From positions 1 through 64,000 of the forward strand of contig NZ_JAFREN010000025.1 of the NCBI RefSeq assembly GCF_017377505.1: a DNA stretch of 64,000 nucleotides, given 5' to 3'. The stretch comes from Enterococcus sp. DIV0212c. Lineage in GTDB: Bacteria > Bacillota > Bacilli > Lactobacillales > Enterococcaceae. The notes beneath the pieces were generated by a model that saw only the letters and a program-made list of their open reading frames with translations, searched no databases and was not told the DNA's origin. The first letter of the stretch is position 1. Each line of letters begins with the position of its first letter. The translations under genes and the position numbers were made by a program. Below, piece after piece: positions 31,160 through 61,373 of this stretch.

Positions 31160-31699
31160 TTATTGATAAACTATAGTTGATAATCCAAAGCCTCTAATTT
31201 TATAAATTACTCCATTGTTGAAAAGTCCATGACCTGCTATAGTAGTTGCAACAACGCTACCTACCGCAGTTCCAATGCCGGGGAGAACAGTTGCTATTAT
31301 AGCGGCTATACCACCTACTCCGATATTTAGCATTCCATTTAATACATTCTTACTTAAGTATACATCAACATTTCCATTTCTTGCAGCACCATGCCAAACA
31401 ATCTTGGATACTCCGTTCGCACGAGTCATTGGTAATTTAAAGTTTGACGTATCAACACCCTGATTTTTTAGTAATTGGATTAAGTCAGAATCAGATATAG
31501 TCACAATAGTATCGTTATTGAAGGAACCTTTGTCGATTTTAAAATAAGGAGAATTTTCATAATAGTCAAAGTTTTCGTTAGAATCTTGTTGTTCAATTCT
31601 TGGAGGATTTGACTTATCCTGGGCAAACGAAGTAACTGGCATAGCAACAAATGACCCTAACAAAATAGTACTAAATAACAAACAAATAGATTTTTTCAT
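31160..31699 (-). CDS. Secreted precursor protein, bacteriocin-like
   Basis: This 179-residue protein has a clear Sec signal peptide (MKKSICLLFSTILLGSFVAM..., cut after TSFA near residue 26), an acidic Asn/Asp-rich middle (about 27-90), and a basic to glycine-rich hydrophobic C-terminal part (about 93-179) with alternating Gly/Ala/Val/Ile over 125-157 and no cysteine. This order (signal, acidic pro-region, hydrophobic or cationic C-terminal module) recalls modular secreted bacteriocins such as EntV and streptococcin A-M57, but I cannot prove homology. The start at 31699 has AAGGAG 9 nt upstream. The small membrane protein gene follows. Confidence 0.5.
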   Translation of the reverse strand: MKKSICLLFSTILLGSFVAMPVTSFAQDKSNPPRIEQQDSNENFDYYENSPYFKIDKGSFNNDTIVTISDSDLIQLLKNQGVDTSNFKLPMTRANGVSKIVWHGAARNGNVDVYLSKNVLNGMLNIGVGGIAAIIATVLPGIGTAVGSVVATTIAGHGLFNNGVIYKIRGFGLSTIVYQ

Positions 31700-31715
31700 A
31701 AAATTCATCTCCTTG

Positions 31716-32557: not shown

Positions 32558-32854
32558 TCAGCGAGAAATCATTGAGCCAGTGGGAAGTTTAAATTTTCTA
32601 GCTGCTTCTCCAAAAGAAGCGCCTTCCGTTTCTATAAAGTGTAATACATCCTGCTTAAATTCACTAGTATATTTTTGGGGGGAACGACGGATCTTTAGAC
32701 CGTCGTTCCCAAATAATTGGTAAAAATGTGTCCAATTGTAAACCAAGGCATTGGACGAAAGGCCACATTTATTTGCCAAGGCATGTCCGCCCAAAGGGCC
32801 TTCAAGGTATTCCTTTACTACGTTCAATTTAAAATCTGCTTCATAAAAGTTCAA
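32558..32854 (-). pseudogene. IS3-family transposase orfA, truncated
   Basis: This 98-residue frame has two helix-turn-helix repeats typical of IS3/IS150-type OrfA: FKLNVVKEYLEG ... ALANKCGLSSNALVYNWTHFYQLFG and YTSEFKQDVLHFIETEGASFGEAARKFKLPTGSMISR. It stops right after the second one, where intact proteins continue with the leucine-zipper region, so the 3' part is deleted or shifted. It reads toward the orfB remnant. Confidence 0.7.
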
Positions 32855-33145: not shown

Positions 33146-33649
33146 TTAGATAAACAACATAATGGTTTTAGTGACAAAGTTAGCAACCCCAGTTGGCATT
33201 CCGACTTTTTTACATGCGTTAAAAATAGCATTTTCCAAAGTTCCAGTGTAGTGCTCAATTAAATTTAAAAACCCATTTATGCCTACGTAACCACCAATAG
33301 TATTTCTAACTCCTGCAGGCAATTTATTCCAAACTTTTCTAATAGCTTTAACTGCCCATGTAAATTTCCCGCGTTGCATATCTAACTGTTCTACACCGTT
33401 AATAAAGGCTGTTCCATTTTCCAAATAGATGCCAGGTGATTCATAATTGTTAAAGGCTTCAATTTCTTTACTAGTAAAGCCATTTTCTTCTAAAATAGAC
33501 CCATTAATTTGAAAATCAGGATCAAATTGTTCATCGTTTCGTTGTTCTGAATTAGTAACGGAATCGGCAAATACGATAGCACTCGGAGAAACGGCAGAGG
33601 CAAGTAAGCCTAATGCGCAAAATAAGATAATATTCTTTTTAAGAGTCAT
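33146..33649 (-). CDS. Secreted bacteriocin-like precursor (EntV/streptococcin A-M57-like architecture)
   Basis: This 167-residue protein has a signal peptide (cut after FA near residue 28), an acidic pro-region (about 29-92) and a cationic C-terminal module (about 93-167) beginning RGKFTWAVKAIRKVWNKL, with EHYTGTLENAIFNACKKVGM and a hydrophobic end KTIMLFI. The amphipathic Trp/Lys/Arg helices and processing-like Arg-Gly-Lys boundary fit a proprotein that releases a helical antimicrobial peptide of about 70-75 residues, as EntV does after GelE cleavage. Only one Cys is left in the mature part, so the EntV disulfide cannot form. Homology is suspected, not shown. Confidence 0.55.
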   Translation of the reverse strand: MTLKKNIILFCALGLLASAVSPSAIVFADSVTNSEQRNDEQFDPDFQINGSILEENGFTSKEIEAFNNYESPGIYLENGTAFINGVEQLDMQRGKFTWAVKAIRKVWNKLPAGVRNTIGGYVGINGFLNLIEHYTGTLENAIFNACKKVGMPTGVANFVTKTIMLFI

Positions 33650-33985: not shown

Positions 33986-35167
33986 TTATCCACTAATCTC
34001 AGTTTTCTCCTTCTGATAATACATAGAAAGTACTAAACCAACCCCGATAAAATTAGCCAAATAAGCTGTACCACCCTGACTGATAAAAGGCAGAGGAATC
34101 CCCGTCAAAGGCAGTAATCCAATATTAGAGCCAATATTTTCAAGAATATGGAACAAGAAATACATAATTACACCCGTTGTAATATATGCATAAAATTCGC
34201 GTTTTGCATTTAATGTACAAATCAGCATTTGATAAATCAGATAAAAGAACAACAAAATCAAAGCACAGGTTCCTACAAAACCATAAGCTTCACCGATCAC
34301 AGTAAAAATCATATCAGATTCTCGCACAGGGACATAGACTTGTAAGTCATTCAGTCCTTTTCCAAGCATTTCTCCAGAACCAATCGCTGTCAGACCTCGT
34401 GCTTGCTGAAAAGAAATTGAATCCGCGTATTCAAAAGGATTGAGCCAAGCATGAATTCGATTAAATTGATAAGGTTTGAAATGAAGATACGAAAGAATTT
34501 TTTGCCCTCTTTCCGTCAATACTAACAAAATCCCACTAATGCCTAACGCACTTAAGATACTAAATCCCACCGTTAAAATTTTCCAAGAACAGCCGGAAAC
34601 AAGCACTATACCAAGAAAAATCGAGATAAAAACCAAGCTTGTGCCAAAATCTTTTTGATAAAACATCAAGCCTAAAATTGGGATGCTAACCAAAAATAAT
34701 TCTCCCAATAAACGGAAATCTTCTTTTAAAGTGGAAGGATAGGATGAATGTTGTCGTCTTCTAGTAACGATATAGGCCAACATTAAAATATAGCCAAGCT
34801 TCATAAATTCTGATGGTTGAAATGAAATTGGACCTAACCGAATCCAGCGTTTTGTTCCTGTTACCTCAGCCATAACAGGATCATGGAATTTTACAAGCAA
34901 TCCCATTAAAATCAGCGATGAACAGTAGAAAAACGGCGTCAGTTTCCATAAATATTTAATAGGAATAAACATGGTGAAAAACATAGCTCCGATGCCTAAA
35001 ATAGTCCATATAAATTGCTTCTTCAATAAAGGAGCAACAGATTCAACAGCAGGGTCAGCATGGAATGCTCCATATTGAGCGATAAATCCAACTAATATCA
35101 AAAGGAAAACAGGTAGAAGAAGAGCGTAATTTATTGCTTCTTTTTTTCGAATTATCGCATTTCTCAT
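33986..35167 (-). CDS. RodA-like SEDS peptidoglycan polymerase
   Basis: This 393-residue protein has ten membrane helices and SEDS signatures: GTKRWIRLGPISFQPSEFMKLGYILMLA in the first half, YQKDFGTSLVF, then GLNDLQVYVPVRESDMIFTVIGEAYGFVG with the catalytic-type Asp before MIF, and GIPLPFISQGGTA. SEDS proteins polymerise glycan strands from lipid II together with a class B PBP. The usual GxGxGxxQKxxxLPxxHTDF motif is altered (VPVRESDM), so it is a divergent member. It overlaps the next upstream gene by 4 nt. It lacks a PBP partner in the operon. Confidence 0.85.
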   Translation of the reverse strand: MRNAIIRKKEAINYALLLPVFLLILVGFIAQYGAFHADPAVESVAPLLKKQFIWTILGIGAMFFTMFIPIKYLWKLTPFFYCSSLILMGLLVKFHDPVMAEVTGTKRWIRLGPISFQPSEFMKLGYILMLAYIVTRRRQHSSYPSTLKEDFRLLGELFLVSIPILGLMFYQKDFGTSLVFISIFLGIVLVSGCSWKILTVGFSILSALGISGILLVLTERGQKILSYLHFKPYQFNRIHAWLNPFEYADSISFQQARGLTAIGSGEMLGKGLNDLQVYVPVRESDMIFTVIGEAYGFVGTCALILLFFYLIYQMLICTLNAKREFYAYITTGVIMYFLFHILENIGSNIGLLPLTGIPLPFISQGGTAYLANFIGVGLVLSMYYQKEKTEISG

Positions 35168-36345
35168 GCTCTGCCTCCTTGCTGTCTAAATGTTTCTCTA
35201 AGCTCTGTCGCATGAGCGTTTAAAGCAATCCCAAGCGTAATGCTCAATATCAGCAAACTAGATCCGCCATAGCTAATAAAAGGAAATGTTAGTCCTGTCA
35301 TCGGAATAAACCCTAACAGACTCCCTACATTTACGGCTACTTGAAGTAAAAGCAACATTCCACAGCCGATAAAAAGATAAGAGCAATAAAGGTTTTTCGA
35401 TTTGATGGCTAGTAAAAACAAACGACCAACAATCAAGAAAACTAAAAATAAAATCCCTAAAGAACAAATTAAACCTAACTCCTCAATGCAAATCGCAAAA
35501 ATAAAATCAGTATCCGCTGCTGGCAGAAAGCCTTTTTTCTGAATACTATTGCCTAAACCTAAGCCCCAAAACCCGCCATTGTGCATAGCGTAGTAAGCAT
35601 TCGATGTTTGGAAGCCTTTGCCTGTGGGGTCGATAAAAGGATTTTGCATTACTTCAAAACGTGTCACTAAATAACCAAATTTTTGTGGCATCCAATGAGT
35701 TGGGATAGACAATAAGAGTAGAGTGCCTAAACGTTTTATCGCAACAAAGCCAATCAACGCTAACGACATAAATAAAGGCGAAAGTCCGCTGGATAAAAAT
35801 AGAACCAAAACAAGGATAAAAATCATCGATGCGCCAGCAATATTTGGCTGTAATGCAACAAAAAACATAAAGAAAAGCGAAACCAATAATGAACGTTTAT
35901 GATTTTTAAAGGTAAAAGGAACTAATGTATCCGTTTTTGCTAAATTTGACGCTAAATAAAGAACCAATACTAAAGGAACTAATTCTGATGGCTGAAACAA
36001 AAGTACGCCTAAATTGATCCAGCGTTTGGCACCGCCTACACTTGTCCCAATCAATGGTAAAGAGATGATTGAAAGAAAGGTCATGATTAAGATAAAATGC
36101 ATCATTTTTGGCTTGCGAAGTACACTCAAATTAAAGCGATAAACAAAAAACATGCAGACTAGACTAAAAATAAAGTACATTGTCTGTTTGATTGCCTTAC
36201 TGGCTGTTCCTAATTCACTGTCTAATAACTGATAAGAGCTAGAACTATAGACCATTAAAATACCGATGATACATAGGATGAAATAAGGGATTAAAATATA
36301 AAAATCTACATAATGCAATTTGGATAATCTGTTGTGCTGTTTCAT
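35164..36345 (-). CDS. FtsW-like SEDS peptidoglycan polymerase
   Basis: This 393-residue protein also has ten helices and classical FtsW motifs: VYSSSSY at the start, GGAKRWINLGVLLFQPSEL, ALQPNIAGASMIF, GLGLGNSIQKKGFLPAADTDFIFAICIEELG with the catalytic Asp in TDF, and MTGLTFPFISYGGSSL. It is nearer the consensus than its neighbour. The start overlaps the LCP gene end by 4 nt, so the three genes LCP, FtsW-like and RodA-like are translationally coupled. Since the main ftsW and rodA of enterococci are expected elsewhere, these may be extra copies. Confidence 0.87.
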   Translation of the reverse strand: MKQHNRLSKLHYVDFYILIPYFILCIIGILMVYSSSSYQLLDSELGTASKAIKQTMYFIFSLVCMFFVYRFNLSVLRKPKMMHFILIMTFLSIISLPLIGTSVGGAKRWINLGVLLFQPSELVPLVLVLYLASNLAKTDTLVPFTFKNHKRSLLVSLFFMFFVALQPNIAGASMIFILVLVLFLSSGLSPLFMSLALIGFVAIKRLGTLLLLSIPTHWMPQKFGYLVTRFEVMQNPFIDPTGKGFQTSNAYYAMHNGGFWGLGLGNSIQKKGFLPAADTDFIFAICIEELGLICSLGILFLVFLIVGRLFLLAIKSKNLYCSYLFIGCGMLLLLQVAVNVGSLLGFIPMTGLTFPFISYGGSSLLILSITLGIALNAHATELRETFRQQGGRA

Positions 36346-37268
36346 TTTGCTGCTCCATCATTCAAGAATTCATGAATGGCTTGTGCATTTTGCGTTTCGT
36401 CGATCTCTAAAACACTTCCAGCCTCAGTGTAATCATTAAAAGTCCAGCTCCCTTTAACTGGTACGGATAACGTTTTGAGATTTTTAACAGTTCCTTTCAG
36501 AAAATCTTTAGCTAAATCTATTAGCAAATCAGCAGGTATATTTGTGTCTAAGTACCCGATAGCTTCACCAGCAATTTTAGGTAGCTGCATGAATGAAACT
36601 GCTTCTTTAGATTGTTTGGCTAAGGCGTCCATGACTTGTTGTTGTCTTCTGACACGACCGAAATCGCCTTCTTCATCCATTCTAAAACGAGCATATTGCA
36701 ACAAGGTATGACCATCCATGATTTGCTTGCCTTTTTTGATATCAACATTGTCTAGGTTGATGTCTTTTTCCGCATCAATTTCAATGCCTTTTGGATACAG
36801 TTCATTGATTAATCGAATAAAGTTATTAAAATCAGCAGAAATATAATAATTGATTGGTAAGTTAAACGAATCGTTTAACACTTTTCTTGTTAATTCTGCG
36901 CCGCCAAAAGCATAAGCAGCATTGATTTTTTCTAAACCATGATCAGGAATCTGCACATAAGAATCTCTCATGATCGAGACTAATTTTGGTTGTTTTGTTT
37001 CGCTATTATAATGGGCGACCATCAACGTATCTGCTCGTCCACCATCTTCATCATCTTCACGTCCGTCATCGCCTATCAACATAATCGTGATTTCTTTTAG
37101 ATTTGTCTGTTGATCACCAGAAAAATTCGTATTCTTAGACTTATTTACTTGAGACTGGGCTGTTTTTTTTCCATTATGAAAGCTAATAGCAATATAACTT
37201 CCAGTAGCAGTAACGACCAATATGCCAAAAAGAACCGTACAAATTAAAAGTTTCTTTACTGTTTTCAT
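36342..37268 (-). CDS. LCP family (LytR-CpsA-Psr) glycopolymer ligase
   Basis: This 308-residue protein has one N-terminal helix (about 8-28), a linker, and an extracytoplasmic LCP domain (about 60-260). It shows the family pattern: GDDGR near 67, GRADTLMV near 77, VSIMRDSYVQIP, LEKINAAYAFGG and YARFRMDEEGDFGRVRRQQ, whose Arg and Asp residues bind the polyprenyl pyrophosphate. LCP proteins attach teichoic acids or polysaccharides to peptidoglycan. Being first in an operon with two SEDS polymerases, it may couple a polymer to newly made wall. GAGGAA lies before the ATG. An M-box riboswitch lies about 290 nt upstream. Confidence 0.9.
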   Translation of the reverse strand: MKTVKKLLICTVLFGILVVTATGSYIAISFHNGKKTAQSQVNKSKNTNFSGDQQTNLKEITIMLIGDDGREDDEDGGRADTLMVAHYNSETKQPKLVSIMRDSYVQIPDHGLEKINAAYAFGGAELTRKVLNDSFNLPINYYISADFNNFIRLINELYPKGIEIDAEKDINLDNVDIKKGKQIMDGHTLLQYARFRMDEEGDFGRVRRQQQVMDALAKQSKEAVSFMQLPKIAGEAIGYLDTNIPADLLIDLAKDFLKGTVKNLKTLSVPVKGSWTFNDYTEAGSVLEIDETQNAQAIHEFLNDGAAK

Positions 37269-37380
37269 TTTTATTCCTCGCTAATCATTTTAATTGATCA
37301 TCAAATAAAGTTTGGCTTTAGGAATTGATTTGGATGACGGTATAAAAAGTTCTTTTTGCTCTGAATAATAGATAAAGGCG

Positions 37381-37449
37381 GTTGTACACTAAAGAAGATA
37401 AGTTACAATAATAACTAGATTTCTTCTTTAGAACTAATTTTCACCTCCT
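37381..37449 (-). promoter_or_regulatory. Candidate internal promoter, inverted repeat and orphan ribosome binding site
   Basis: On the minus strand, TTGTAA (37408-37403), 16 bp, TACAAC (37386-37381) could be a promoter for the LCP operon. A 10-bp inverted repeat CTAAAGAAGA/TCTTCTTTAG spans 37389-37431 and encloses the -35. Just upstream lies AGGAGGTGA (37449-37441), a perfect ribosome binding site without any ATG, GTG or TTG start at the right distance. Confidence 0.4.
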
Positions 37450-37483
37450 AAAGTCCTAATATTTGCCAATAGTATTTATCAAA

Positions 37484-37519
37484 AACAAAAAACCTTCGCT
37501 TAAAATAACTCAGCGAAGG
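37484..37519 (-). terminator. Riboswitch terminator downstream of the minus-strand M-box
   Basis: Read on the minus strand, CCTTCGCT and AGCGAAGG form a stem, followed by TTTTTTG and TTTTT. It lies about 40-60 nt after the M-box core and is the natural expression platform. Confidence 0.85.
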
Positions 37520-37554
37520 GGGATTGATTTCAGCACAAATAGAGCTTTTCATCA

Positions 37555-37712
37555 TTCTCATCGTTGAGTTTTAGCACTATGAAACGTAAAAAGCAGAGCT
37601 TTTAGCTACTTTGTGAAAAGCCTTAATTCGACAATTCCTGTCCTACCCATTACTGTCTTTCGACATTTTTGAGCAGTAGCCTGTGTTTCCATAGGAGCCT
37701 CACCTAACAAGT
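37555..37712 (-). promoter_or_regulatory. M-box (ykoK) Mg2+ riboswitch upstream of the LCP-SEDS operon
   Basis: From GTTAGGTGAGGCTCCTAT through GGCTACTGC, the ATGTCGAAAGAC loop, AATGGGTAGGACAGGAATTG, TTAAGGCTTTTC and AGTAGCTAAAAGC, the minus strand matches the M-box aptamer. It is also nearly identical, block by block, to the M-box in front of the Mg2+ ATPase at 58435 in this window. M-box RNAs fold around Mg2+ and stop transcription when Mg2+ is plentiful. The aptamer, its promoter and its terminator are all intact. The next gene is the LCP-SEDS operon, not a transporter. Confidence 0.88.
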
Positions 37713-37728
37713 TATTCAGATCGCCCTA

Positions 37729-37757
37729 AATATAGTGAAAATATCACTTGAAGTCAA
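37729..37757 (-). promoter_or_regulatory. Promoter of the minus-strand M-box leader
   Basis: On the minus strand, TTGACT (37757-37752), 17 bp, TATATT (37734-37729). The start would be near 37722, about 10 nt before the M-box core, so the riboswitch is probably still transcribed. Confidence 0.75.
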
Positions 37758-58168: not shown

Positions 58169-58434
58169 TCCGAGTTAATATTGTAAAAAGGAGTATGGAT
58201 TTTGCATAAACGAAGTTGGGATGTTCGTCTACATAACTATCATAAATAGAAATGAGCAAATAAACCATTCCTTTTTGTTTATACCTTTATTCTGTTTTAT
58301 AAATGATTTGATGTTGACTAACAAAAGCTTAAGTAAGCTGATAAAACTATATACAAAAAAAGTTATAGCGGTATAAGTTTTTTAGTCTATAAAAAAATGA
58401 CGTAACTCATTAGAATGATAGTGTAATTCTTCTT

Positions 58435-58632
58435 GTTAGGTGAGGCTCCTATACAAACATAGGCTACTGCCCAAAAACGTCGAGAGACGCCAATGGGTAG
58501 AACAGGAATTGTCGGATTAAGGCTTTTCTTAAGGTAGCTAAAAGCGAATGCTTTTTACGTTGTATAGTGCCAAAACTCAACGATTGCGAAGACTCACGGC
58601 AGAGCGGGCTGAGTTTTCAGTGTGCTTTTTTT
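58435..58632 (+). promoter_or_regulatory. M-box (ykoK) Mg2+ riboswitch of the Mg2+ ATPase gene
   Basis: GTTAGGTGAGGCTCCTATAC, AGGCTACTGCCC, the ACGTCGAGAGACGCC stem, AATGGGTAGAACAGG, GGATTAAGGCTTTTC and AGTGCCAAAACTCAACGA make a full M-box aptamer. Downstream, ACTCA ... TGAGT with TTTTTTT at about 58625-58632 makes the terminator, competing with AAAACTCA upstream. Transcription of the Mg2+ ATPase is thus shut down when Mg2+ is ample. Confidence 0.92.
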
Positions 58633-58712: not shown

Positions 58713-61373
58713 ATGCAAAAAGAAATGAAGAACATGATCCATGAAAAAGCGTATCAAAAATTAGCTAACCTATCTATCGATAAAGTATTAGAAAGTTTTT
58801 CATCCTCTTGGGATGGGCTAAAAGCCATAGAAGTACAACGTTCCAAGGATAAATTTGGTGTAAATAAAATCACTGATGATAAAAAGAAATCATTTATTTA
58901 TACAGTGATAAAATCATATGTTACCCCTTTTACAGTTGTATTGATGATTCTTGCGACTATTTCATTTTTTACGGAATATGTTTATGCAGAACCAAGTGAA
59001 AAAGACATTGCCGGCGTGTTGATCATGCTCGTCATGGTTTTGTTAAGTGGAACAATGAGCTTAGTTCAATCAGTAAAATCAAGCAATGCAGTTAGTAAAT
59101 TGCAAAATATGATTCAGATAACTGCAACAGTTACTAGAGAAAATAAAGAAATGGAAATCCCTATGGATGAAGTTGTATGCGGTGATTTAGTTAAACTTTC
59201 AGCAGGTGACATGATTCCAGCAGATTTACGTCTGATTCATGCCAAAGACTTGTTCATCTCACAATCTGCGATGACCGGAGAAAGTTTTCCAGTTGAAAAG
59301 AAAGTAAAAAATACAGTGCATACCAACAATAACCAAACAGATTTTGAAAATTTGTTATTTTTAGGCAGTAACGTGGTCAGCGGCAGCGGCGTTGGTGTTG
59401 CAGTTCGAGTGGGTGACAATACTTTATTTGGAAAAATCGCTCAAGATGTAGCAGATGACGAGAAAAAAACTAGTTTTGAATTAGGTGTGAATAAAACAAC
59501 CTGGCTTTTGATCCGTTTTATGATGGTGATTACACCAGCGGTATTTTTGATTAATGGAATCACTAAAGGCAATTGGAGCGAAGCGTTGATGTTTGCGATT
59601 GCGACAGCGGTCGGTTTGACACCAGAAATGCTGCCAATGATCGTAACGACAAATTTGGTCAAGGGTTCTAGAGATATGGCAAAAGAAGGAACGATCATGA
59701 AAAATGTCAATGCGATTCAAAACTTTGGAGCGATGGATATTTTATGTACCGATAAAACTGGGACATTAACACAAGACAAAGTTATTTTGGAATACCATTA
59801 CAATACGTCGTGTCAAGAAGACCGAAAAGTGCTGCAGTCTGCTTTTTTAAATAGTTATTTTCAAACAGGCCTTCGTAATTTAATCGATAAAGCAATTATT
59901 GAAGCAACATCAAAAGAATTATCCATTGACGAAGAAGATTATTTTAAAATCGATGAGATTCCTTTCGATTTTAACCGTAGAAGAATGAGTGTGGTTGTCA
60001 AAGATAGAAGAGCCAATCAAAGTAGCTTGATCACAAAAGGTGCAGTTGAAGAAATGCTTCAGGCTTGTTCTTATATCAATCAAGGCGGCGAGATTGTTCC
60101 AATCACGTCAGAAATAAAAAAACAAGTGCTAAAAACAGTGAATGACTTAAATGAAGATGGTCTACGAGTGTTAGCAATCGCTGATAAGAAAGTCAATAAT
60201 CAGTTAGATGATTATTCTGTTGAAGATGAAAAAGAACTTGTTTTACAAGGTTATCTAGCTTTTTTAGATCCTCCTAAAGAAACAGCAGCGCAAGCTATCC
60301 AAGCGTTGAAAAATAACGGAGTTTCAGTAAAAATCTTAACGGGTGATAATGAGTTAGTTACGCGATCTGTCTGTAGAGAAGTTGGTCTTGGAACTGAAAA
60401 AATGATCAATGGTTCTGCAATTGCTAAATTAACTGAGACAGAATTAGAAAAAACAGTCAATGAATACAACGTTTTCACAAAAGTAACACCAGATCAAAAA
60501 ACAAAAATCGTTAAAGCTTTGAAAAAGAACGAACAAACAGTTGGTTTTATGGGCGATGGAATCAACGATGCTGGAGCGATGAAAGTTTCCGATGTAGGGA
60601 TTTCTGTGGATACGGCAGTTGATATTGCCAAAGAATCAGCAGATGTTATTTTGTTGCAAAAAGATTTAATGGTTTTAGAACAAGGAATCTTATCTGGACG
60701 TCGAGTGTTCAGTAATACAATGAAATATATTAAAATGACAGCAAGTTCAAACTTTGGAAATGTTTTTTCCGTGATTCCAGCAAGTATCTTTTTGCCATTC
60801 TTACCAGTAGCACCGATTCAATCACTTTTCTTAAACTTGATTTATGATACTTCTTGTATGTCTGTTCCGTGGGATAATGTCGATGCAGAATATGTAGAGA
60901 AACCTAAAAAATGGGAAGCTAAGTCGATTGGTTCGTTTATGAGATGGTTTGGACCAACAAGTTCTGTTTTTGATATTGTTACGTATCTATTTATGTACTT
61001 TATTATTTGTCCAGCTATCTTGGGCGGTAGTTTCTTCTCGTTAACAGCAGATAAACAGTTACTATTTATTGCAATTTTCCACGCGGGTTGGTTTATTGAA
61101 TCATTATGGTCACAAATGTTAGTTCTTCATGTACTAAGAACACCAAAAATTCCATTTCTTCAAAGTAGAGCATCAGGGATTTTAACATTGGTGACTTCGA
61201 TTGGGATTTTAGTTGGAACGGTTTTACCGTTTACCAAGTTAGGGGCAAGTATCGGTTTTGCACCATTGCCGGGAAATTATTTCTTCTACTTAATTCCGAC
61301 AATTATTGCATATTTACTTTTAGTAACAGTAATCAAAAAAATCTATATGAGAAAATACCAAGAGTTACTTTAG
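58713..61373 (+). CDS. mgtA: Magnesium-translocating P-type ATPase
   Basis: This 886-residue P3B-type ATPase imports Mg2+. It has the cation ATPase N-terminal domain (about 15-80), ten membrane helices, the TGES-type actuator motif (SAMTGESFPVEK near 190), the phosphorylation site Asp347 in CTDKTGTLTQD, the KGAVEEML nucleotide-binding site and MGDGINDAGAMKVSDVGISVD hinge. The selectivity for Mg2+ follows from family likeness and from the M-box riboswitch in its leader. AGAGGAAAAG precedes the ATG. Confidence 0.95.
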   Translation: MQKEMKNMIHEKAYQKLANLSIDKVLESFSSSWDGLKAIEVQRSKDKFGVNKITDDKKKSFIYTVIKSYVTPFTVVLMILATISFFTEYVYAEPSEKDIAGVLIMLVMVLLSGTMSLVQSVKSSNAVSKLQNMIQITATVTRENKEMEIPMDEVVCGDLVKLSAGDMIPADLRLIHAKDLFISQSAMTGESFPVEKKVKNTVHTNNNQTDFENLLFLGSNVVSGSGVGVAVRVGDNTLFGKIAQDVADDEKKTSFELGVNKTTWLLIRFMMVITPAVFLINGITKGNWSEALMFAIATAVGLTPEMLPMIVTTNLVKGSRDMAKEGTIMKNVNAIQNFGAMDILCTDKTGTLTQDKVILEYHYNTSCQEDRKVLQSAFLNSYFQTGLRNLIDKAIIEATSKELSIDEEDYFKIDEIPFDFNRRRMSVVVKDRRANQSSLITKGAVEEMLQACSYINQGGEIVPITSEIKKQVLKTVNDLNEDGLRVLAIADKKVNNQLDDYSVEDEKELVLQGYLAFLDPPKETAAQAIQALKNNGVSVKILTGDNELVTRSVCREVGLGTEKMINGSAIAKLTETELEKTVNEYNVFTKVTPDQKTKIVKALKKNEQTVGFMGDGINDAGAMKVSDVGISVDTAVDIAKESADVILLQKDLMVLEQGILSGRRVFSNTMKYIKMTASSNFGNVFSVIPASIFLPFLPVAPIQSLFLNLIYDTSCMSVPWDNVDAEYVEKPKKWEAKSIGSFMRWFGPTSSVFDIVTYLFMYFIICPAILGGSFFSLTADKQLLFIAIFHAGWFIESLWSQMLVLHVLRTPKIPFLQSRASGILTLVTSIGILVGTVLPFTKLGASIGFAPLPGNYFFYLIPTIIAYLLLVTVIKKIYMRKYQELL

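Follow-up and report, generated by a model that had tools for sequence, protein, structure and literature searches.

An M-box magnesium riboswitch very probably controls an auxiliary LCP-FtsW-RodA cell-wall operon in Enterococcus

Analysis of a 64,000-nucleotide stretch of DNA from Enterococcus sp. DIV0212c (contig NZ_JAFREN010000025.1, positions 1 to 64,000; hereafter, the window) revealed a full-length M-box in front of a cell-wall operon that holds one LytR-CpsA-Psr (LCP) gene and two SEDS genes. Our comparative data make it very probable that this M-box is a working riboswitch controlling the LCP-FtsW-RodA operon, and the best reading of the sequences is that auxiliary wall polymerases and ligases would be switched on by low Mg2+. 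The features concerned, in window coordinates, are as follows:

37729..37757, minus strand: sigma-70-type promoter of the M-box transcript, TTGACT-17-TATATT, with 10/12 consensus matches
37549..37718, minus strand: M-box (ykoK) Mg2+ riboswitch aptamer, full length, identified by covariance match to RF00380
37561..37570, minus strand: AACTCAACGA, 3' strand of the aptamer and candidate antiterminator strand, invariant in 18 leaders
37507..37516, minus strand: TCGCTGAGTT, 3' half of the antiterminator by leader alignment pairing, overlapping the 5' arm of the terminator
about 37484..37519, minus strand: intrinsic terminator, 8-bp stem CCTTCGCT/AGCGAAGG plus T run, read from the sequence
37442..37449, minus strand: AGGAGGTG, Shine-Dalgarno-like, after the terminator and with no start codon following it, kept in many orthologues
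36342..37268, minus strand: LCP glycopolymer ligase, 308 aa (PF03816, 151.4 bits)
35164..36345, minus strand: FtsW-type SEDS peptidoglycan polymerase, auxiliary copy, 393 aa (PF01098, 258 bits; tree)
33986..35167, minus strand: RodA-type SEDS peptidoglycan polymerase, auxiliary copy, 393 aa (PF01098, 258 bits; tree)
58425..58595, plus strand: second M-box, before a gene for an MgtA-type P-type ATPase (RF00380, 166.1 bits)
58713..61373, plus strand: MgtA-like P-type cation ATPase, 886 aa (domain match)

The initial annotation of this DNA had claimed a complete M-box with its own consensus promoter, read into LCP-FtsW-RodA with no transporter gene between, and each of these points held. More specifically, the aptamer (37718-37549) scored 149.7 bits with RF00380 (gathering score 44; E = 4.4e-34) and spanned positions 1-169 of the 169 in the model, and the promoter was found at 37757-37729. 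The next gene is LCP (37268-36342), no open reading frame of at least 80 aa was found on the same strand between it and the M-box, and LCP, FtsW, and RodA successively overlap by 4 nt each. The usual, though not defining, place of an M-box before a Mg2+ transporter gene is taken at this locus by LCP. Both SEDS proteins combine the PF01098 domain with the aspartate of extracellular loop 4, which we take to be the essential one. The best PDB relative of the LCP protein is MsrR (E = 1e-56), and its motifs GDD...GRAD, MRD, and YARFR...GRVRRQ map, by our inference, onto the pocket arginines and Mg2+-holding aspartates whose roles are described in the accessible part of PMC7831098.

The second M-box was also located as proposed, before the Mg2+ ATPase gene at 58713. 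The two M-boxes are similar, as had been stated, but "nearly block-identical" was a little strong a wording for 142 matches in 174 aligned columns (82%). The source genome holds five M-boxes, with LCP genes downstream of three, and beyond LCP-FtsW-RodA its M-box regulon includes two MgtA-type pumps, a PAP2-LCP fusion, and a further LCP.

Linkage between the M-box and the extra SEDS pair is complete within the genus. An extra FtsW-RodA pair (i.e., four SEDS genes) is present in 17 of 22 same-genus genomes and lies behind an M-box in 17/17, and the remaining five genomes have two SEDS genes and no M-box-SEDS region. The LCP gene has been lost wholly or mostly in 4 of the 17 genomes, with the M-box and FtsW-RodA retained: in G006 and G014 it was excised exactly, such that the leader's start codon now opens FtsW, and in G003 and G001 about 66 and 138 codons of it, respectively, remain ahead of FtsW-RodA. 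A transporter gene between M-box and LCP in relatives had been named as the observation that would mark the leader as a relic; none was found in 14 same-genus M-box-LCP regions, nor between M-box and wall genes in any of the 18 same-genus window-class regions (14 with LCP and 4 with LCP lost or reduced to a remnant). Across the 22 genomes, an LCP domain is encoded on the same strand within 3 kb downstream of 43 of 95 M-boxes. Among named species, an M-box lies upstream of all 14 loci whose LCP shares 61% or more identity with the query; no M-box was found upstream of ten more distant LCP loci (26-47% identity), at least one of which comes from a genome whose M-box LCPs are other genes.

Across 14 orthologous leaders, median identity of the aptamer was 98.2%, and in the same comparison it was 37% for the post-terminator spacer and 47.8% for FtsW third codon positions. 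When four divergent leaders were added (18 in all), aptamer identity was 96.5% (minimum 85.4%). Set against neutral sites close to saturation, the 98.2% identity indicates that the window-class aptamer is under strong purifying selection.

The expression platform is maintained as well. The terminator that the initial annotation had placed at 37484-37519 is visible directly in the sequence as a stem with T run; a simple terminator scan did not report it, its 11-nt loop being longer than that scan permits. Among the 18 orthologues, 94.4% of terminator cells are paired, with 5 double-change cells and 2 pairs changed on both sides, a double-change pair count that was matched in 68 of 500 shuffles. 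For the antiterminator, 84.4% of cells are paired in the 18 leaders versus 28-51% for slid controls; covariation was sought in these leaders and none was found, both strands hardly varying, and an A-C mismatch is present in 15 of them. Each leader retains 6-8 of 8 terminator pairs and 7-9 of 10 antiterminator pairs. The aptamer 3' strand is paired in the predicted minimum-free-energy fold of four orthologues, which show the antiterminator, and not in the window's own fold; the window's segment minus the aptamer is predicted to fold as the terminator. The alignments indicate that the aptamer 3' strand and the intrinsic terminator are in competition and that terminator and antiterminator are mutually exclusive, both being kept across relatives. 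Upstream, TTGAC is invariant in the 18 aligned leaders and the -10 region reads TATA(T/G)T.

From known M-box biology, we infer that sufficient Mg2+ would cause the aptamer to fold and hold AACUCAACGA, with transcription ending at 37484, and that under scarce Mg2+ the AACUCAACGA strand would pair with UCGCUGAGUU, such that the terminator could not form. Read-through would then yield the auxiliary LCP ligase together with a second FtsW and a second RodA, and these products would join the MgtA-type pumps, the PAP2-LCP fusion, and the further LCP of the wider regulon. The likely purpose would be to sustain wall polymer synthesis and anionic-polymer attachment when Mg2+, which serves LCP ligases as a cofactor and rescues rod-complex mutants, is scarce. 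Mg2+-riboswitch control of SEDS/LCP genes, as the initial annotation had envisaged, has strong comparative support in the 17/17 extra pairs, the selection on the aptamer, and the kept platform; selection keeps the M-box before these spare wall genes in many relatives, and it probably lets cells alter their wall machinery at low Mg2+.

Wall genes also follow M-boxes outside the genus. In the family's other genera, 26 of 60 M-box regions have a SEDS or an LCP/PAP2-LCP gene in first place, with differing gene orders, and in four more genera M-boxes are repeatedly followed by FtsW-RodA-LCP or FtsW-RodA-PAP2-LCP. Transporter-first forms were found as well, namely, M-box-MgtA-FtsW-RodA in 6 of 9 regions of a Listeria-like family (f7) and a packed M-box-MgtA-MgtC-MgtE-like-FtsW-RodA operon in a genome outside the order (L352). 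Our class-level survey covered 26 M-box loci with 1.5 kb downstream, within which no SEDS or LCP gene was seen, and five of these were extended to at most 6.5 kb. An expectation that wall targets occur only inside the order proved wrong, since extension of L352 revealed three Mg2+ genes followed by FtsW-RodA. The same extension at fifteen loci of the order with MgtA or GNAT as the first gene (L356-L370) gave no SEDS or LCP. Because AU tests reject a single clade of all M-box RodA rows (p-AU 0.0004) and likewise of all M-box FtsW rows (p-AU 0.0099), the trees indicate that SEDS genes joined M-box transcripts more than once. The same tests reject one ancient M-box-SEDS operon held in common with the Listeria-like family; caution is due, as the rows of that family are long branches. 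In the trees, the window-type SEDS genes group with the core genes of Enterococcaceae and apart from the SEDS of transporter-first loci.

Cell-envelope stress acting at the promoter might instead be the main control, with the M-box as a secondary gate or a high-Mg2+ veto. In Listeria monocytogenes, beta-lactams induce the lmo2689-lmo2686 operon (Mg2+-type ATPase, FtsW2, and RodA3), a member of the CesRK regulon, and a lacZ fusion to the promoter upstream of lmo2689 was responsive to beta-lactams and unchanged by MgSO4 or EDTA (PMC6686043, accessible text), a result that counts against the M-box reading; the text does not state whether the fusion contained an M-box. We consider stress control rather unlikely for the window, where the promoter is a plain sigma-70-type site, the stretch from 60 to 260 nt before the aptamer shows no conservation (33% identity), and the Listeria-like genes represent a separate recruitment. 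A drift of the aptamer variant at LCP/SEDS loci towards sensing another divalent ion, e.g., Mn2+, is very improbable: window-class aptamers do depart from the Rfam consensus (with GGACAG in place of GAACAG and CACAAAG in place of CCUAAUG), but all 18 members still align over the full length of RF00380 with 143.7-151.3 bits, and when M-boxes before Nramp-like genes came under a like suspicion, tests found Mg2+ to be the signal (PMC4072509, accessible text). Next to no probability attaches to the alternative offered by the initial annotation, in which a transporter gene was deleted and a decaying leader no longer controls the wall genes: transporter-first forms exist in f7 and L352, but this reading is contradicted by the aptamer conservation against near-saturated neutral sites, the retention of both terminator and antiterminator, the 18 same-genus regions without an intervening transporter, the wall genes directly behind M-boxes in four other genera, the separate branching of window-type SEDS genes, the 17/17 linkage, and the LCP losses that spared M-box-FtsW-RodA.

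Given low-Mg2+ induction as the preferred reading, the metal sites of the products are of interest. PAP2 enzymes, unlike UppP, are not known to need a metal. Among the 120 homologues listed, the R-x-D position carries Asn in 58/58 PAP2-motif proteins and in 13 without the motif, and Asp in 48/48 others without it (one row is gapped); the 71 Asn rows are the closest among the matches listed, so they represent one clade. M-box-linked PAP2-LCP proteins carry Asn in the place taken by a Mg2+-ligand Asp in other LCPs. The window LCP keeps both Mg2+ aspartates, and single M-box LCPs of its genus have an acidic loop beside the metal site. A metal-site change in M-box SEDS proteins was sought as well, and the loop-4 Asp was kept in 14/14 M-box and 18/18 other rows. 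We tentatively raise the possibility that the enterococcal M-box regulon swaps in a Mg2+-sparing wall set, comprising auxiliary FtsW/RodA, a lipid-carrier-recycling PAP2 phosphatase, and LCP ligases with rebuilt metal sites. If so, isoenzymes needing less Mg2+ would, besides import, answer Mg2+ starvation, as Zur does for zinc.

If control of the operon by the M-box is true, the reach of Mg2+ riboswitches would extend beyond ion transport to the synthesis of peptidoglycan and wall polymers. That Mg2+ rescues B. subtilis strains mutated in MreB, RodA, or related wall genes is an old and unexplained observation, on which the operon would offer a direct genetic handle. No M-box linked to FtsW, RodA, or LCP genes was found in the accessible main-text literature that was searched; the accessible parts of PMC3766115 and PMC2211319 name no such targets, and a term search of PMC2258182 gave no match.

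M-boxes are almost always located upstream of corA, mgtE, or mgtA (PMC4072509, accessible text). The window M-box resembles the B. subtilis mgtE-type M-box (ykoK leader, RF00380) in its full-model aptamer and terminator-antiterminator platform, and differs from such M-boxes of Mg2+ transporters in preceding SEDS polymerases and an LCP ligase. Clostridium NrmT (Nramp-related) M-boxes likewise have a target outside CorA/MgtA/MgtE, and Mg2+ control was tested there; however, NrmT is itself a Mg2+ transporter, whereas the window target is wall synthesis (PMC4072509, accessible text). The Listeria lmo2689-lmo2686 operon shares the auxiliary FtsW-RodA pair, and its MgtA-FtsW-RodA order also follows an M-box in six f7 genomes, among them G182, which carries six SEDS genes and whose FtsW and RodA measure 376 and 369 aa, in agreement with what is reported for Listeria; unlike the window operon, the Listeria operon has MgtA first, lacks LCP, and contains SEDS paralogues that arose separately. 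Neither "riboswitch" nor "magnesium" occurs in the main text of PMC6686043 as accessible, and M-box control may explain the scant FtsW2/RodA3 expression in rich medium described there. Similarly, our finding suggests rereading the repeated ykoK-leader mutations of evolved Listeria biofilms, which were read as acting on mgtA (PMC12824596, accessible text).

Further parallels can be drawn with two other systems, one sharing the riboswitch and one the idea. Mycobacterial M-boxes precede PE/PPE and other non-transporter genes, as the window M-box does, with unrelated targets and in another phylum. Bacterial Zur controls zinc-free paralogues and shares with the window regulon only the idea that scarcity of a metal brings in isoenzymes with fewer ligands for it; it differs in being a protein regulator that responds to another metal and governs other proteins.

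An Rfam scan of the window at the gathering threshold gave two matches, both to the M-box Mg2+ riboswitch (RF00380). As the initial annotation had proposed, one of them, with its own promoter and terminator, lies ahead of genes for an LCP (LytR-CpsA-Psr) ligase and the SEDS polymerases FtsW and RodA, next on the same strand:

37718-37549, minus strand: M-box before the wall genes (RF00380, 149.7 bits)
Upstream of this M-box, minus strand: promoter TTGACT-17-TATATT
About 37519-37484, minus strand: terminator downstream of this M-box
3' of the terminator, minus strand: LCP (308 aa), then FtsW (393 aa), then RodA (393 aa), with 4-nt overlaps
58425-58595, plus strand: second M-box (RF00380, 166.1 bits)

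A P-type ATPase gene (58713) follows the second M-box, again as annotated. The description of the two aptamers as nearly block-identical was a little strong, as 142 of 174 aligned columns agree. The motif AGGAGGTG (37442-37449), 3' of the M-box terminator and with no start codon within reach, recurs at the corresponding position in many of the 18 leaders compared, and is possibly an mRNA-stabilising Shine-Dalgarno-like site. Downstream of rodA, two small, probably secreted proteins without a Pfam match are encoded (33146-33649 and 31160-31708, minus strand), with a transposase-like remnant (32558-32854) between them.

The genome harbors five M-boxes. The first recognisable genes are the MgtA-type ATPase (58713) and the LCP-FtsW-RodA set for the two in the window, and for those elsewhere a PAP2-LCP fusion on contig C27, another single LCP on C4, and another MgtA-type ATPase on C24; thus, three of the five precede LCP genes. 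Five LCP and four SEDS genes were counted in total, the two SEDS genes outside the window being on contigs (C12 and C7) that carry none of the five M-boxes. The second MgtA gene lies 229-847 nt from its M-box across the genus; in this genome, a 129-bp tandem repeat (L074, C24, 6093-6429; 2.6 copies, 96% match, period divisible by 3) is located between the terminator and that gene.

All 22 same-genus genomes contain M-boxes (95 in total). For 43 of these, an LCP domain is encoded on the same strand no more than 3 kb downstream; the genomes have 98 LCP genes, 43 of them so positioned. In the 80 of 95 regions whose genes were assigned by BLAST against own-genome proteins, the order M-box-LCP-FtsW-RodA occurred in 13 genomes, and four further genomes had an M-box followed by FtsW-RodA with no whole LCP gene. 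The start codon of the leader is that of FtsW in G006 and G014, an LCP remnant separates M-box and FtsW in G003 (about 66 codons) and G001 (138 codons), and the corresponding region of G012 has M-box-LCP with SEDS genes absent. Consistent with these assignments, PF01098 counts gave four SEDS genes in 17 genomes and two in five (G007, G011, G012, G013, and G016). All 17 genomes with the additional FtsW-RodA pair have it behind an M-box; being kin within one genus, they are not independent cases. At L036 (G011) and L038 (G007), a PAP2 phosphatase alone follows the M-box, the LCP half being absent. An M-box lies upstream at all 14 named loci whose LCP shares 61% or more identity with the query (E. 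ureasiticus, plantarum, ureilyticus, moraviensis, caccae, quebecensis, crotali, termitis, and Enterococcus sp. 5H), with 127-291 bases between its end and the match; none was found at 10 more distant named LCP loci.

Across 14 leaders of the window type (a set omitting the divergent members L095 and L097-L099), median pairwise aptamer identity was 98.2% (minimum, 94.7%), compared with 33% at 60-260 nt upstream and 37% in the 110 nt after the terminator; FtsW third codon positions reached 47.8%. Adding the four divergent leaders gave an aptamer median of 96.5% (minimum, 85.4%). The terminator stem was paired in 94.4% of cells across 18 leaders, with both-side changes at two pairs; its covariation score was reached by 0 of 500 shuffles and its count of both-side-changed pairs by 68 of 500. 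A candidate antiterminator, AACUCAACGA/UCGCUGAGUU, was paired in 84.4% of cells versus 28-51% when slid; it contains an A-C mismatch in all but three of the 18 leaders (15 of 18) and shows no covariation across them. When the 3' segment was folded in silico by itself, the antiterminator formed in L086, L058, L059, and L060, and was not found in the fold of the window. These comparisons establish, at the sequence level, the parts of the leader and their conservation. High Mg2+ would cause termination and low Mg2+ read-through; less surely, the LCP-FtsW-RodA products might sustain wall synthesis under limiting Mg2+, as extra capacity or as isoenzymes needing less Mg2+. Against an Mg2+ response of the wall operon stands a promoter fusion of Listeria lmo2689 (first gene of an operon with an Mg2+-type ATPase, FtsW2, and RodA3), which, in excerpts of PMC6686043, responded to neither MgSO4 nor EDTA.

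In the family, at least 84 of 88 genomes have M-boxes. Outside the genus, 60 of 94 M-box regions among the matches listed were examined, and wall genes stand first in 26: FtsW in 19, and LCP or PAP2-LCP in seven (one a remnant). In 17 of the 19, FtsW-RodA comes first and then PAP2-LCP, LCP, or PAP2 (alone or together with LCP); among the matches listed, SEDS-first regions occur in genera g5, g6, g10, and g16. One genome (G070, C32, 433178-434119; L145 and L155) has two back-to-back M-boxes separated by 0.6 kb; PAP2-LCP follows one of them and FtsW the other. In the order, at least 140 of 198 genomes have M-boxes. The 57 regions examined outside the family (40, plus 16 short loci, 14 of them lengthened, plus one new; two are the same M-box) include nine with SEDS or LCP genes behind the M-box among the matches listed. 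In family f7, which we infer to be Listeriaceae, M-box-MgtA-FtsW-RodA occurs six times and an LCP once; the other two regions have RodA (f6) and LCP-FtsW (f8). Outside the order, no SEDS or LCP gene was found within 1.5 kb downstream at 26 loci of the class; of five viewed further downstream, one (L352, G314) reads M-box-MgtA-MgtC-MgtE-like (half-length)-FtsW-RodA with gaps of 14-63 nt (FtsW, PF01098, 360.9 bits).

Other gene types were also seen behind M-boxes. By eye, two-domain ABC-type permease-like genes directly follow at L168, L170, and perhaps L267, L268, and L290, and may encode an Mg2+ importer not recognised so far. At L039, MgtC and a GNAT acetyltransferase precede MgtA (by Pfam, at this locus alone); L046-L050, L052-L055, L121, L129, and L232 resemble it in gene length and order, and a GNAT-like gene comes first at L253, L254, and L258.

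SEDS trees were built from 32 proteins of eight genomes jointly, and for the FtsW and RodA halves separately. M-box FtsW proteins of the family and f8 formed a single clade in the FtsW tree (100/99) and two weakly joined clades in the joint tree; M-box RodA proteins of the family formed one clade (100/99). The Listeria-like M-box FtsW and the f6 M-box RodA each clustered with their own core counterpart, FtsW and RodA, respectively. Single clades of all M-box RodA or all M-box FtsW rows were rejected (p-AU 0.0004 and 0.0099, respectively). With L352 added, the family M-box clades remained nested with same-family core genes, and L352 and the Listeria-like rows, both long branches, fell away from them. 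The trees support at least two recruitments of SEDS genes to M-boxes, and there were probably three or more; if the arrangement had no function, such repeated placement behind one kind of riboswitch would be difficult to account for.

LCP ligases are Mg2+-dependent, Asp234 and Asp246 of Cps2A holding the metal (excerpts of PMC7831098). We infer that Asp246 is the R-x-D aspartate, since it lies 21 residues ahead of the PRD arginine (R267), a spacing shared by aligned LCPs. Of the 32 LCP matches listed (eight genomes), 30 were alignable; among these, this position is Asn in all four PAP2-linked LCPs, all behind M-boxes, and Asp in the other 26 (five behind M-boxes, 21 not). Among 120 database homologues listed, Asn occurs in 58 of 58 with the PAP2 motif; without it, 13 have Asn and 48 Asp, one row being gapped. 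The 71 Asn rows are the closest of the matches listed, and so represent one clade. E. faecalis has a fusion of the Asn kind (P0032), whose R-S-N-A-L motif recurs downstream of an M-box in G023 (L147). Both aspartates are retained in the window LCP, which, like other single M-box LCPs of the genus, carries an acidic loop between the two. No change of the loop-4 Asp was found in the SEDS proteins.

A literature search found no link of the M-box to FtsW/RodA or LytR, or of lmo2689 to a riboswitch. Repeated Listeria ykoK-leader mutations arose during biofilm evolution (PMC12824596; compare L223-L227); the excerpted text relates them to mgtA, and ftsW is not mentioned in the paper. As FtsW-RodA lies downstream of M-box-MgtA in Listeria-like genomes, these mutations may also act on FtsW2/RodA3. 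One such genome (G182, f7) has six SEDS genes, including two adjacent pairs, and its FtsW and RodA behind the M-box are of 376 and 369 aa, in agreement with the Listeria set in excerpts of PMC6686043. According to the excerpted text of PMC4072509, the genes downstream of M-boxes are nearly always those of Mg2+ transporters; the window leader is an ordinary M-box, and what is new is the class of its target genes.
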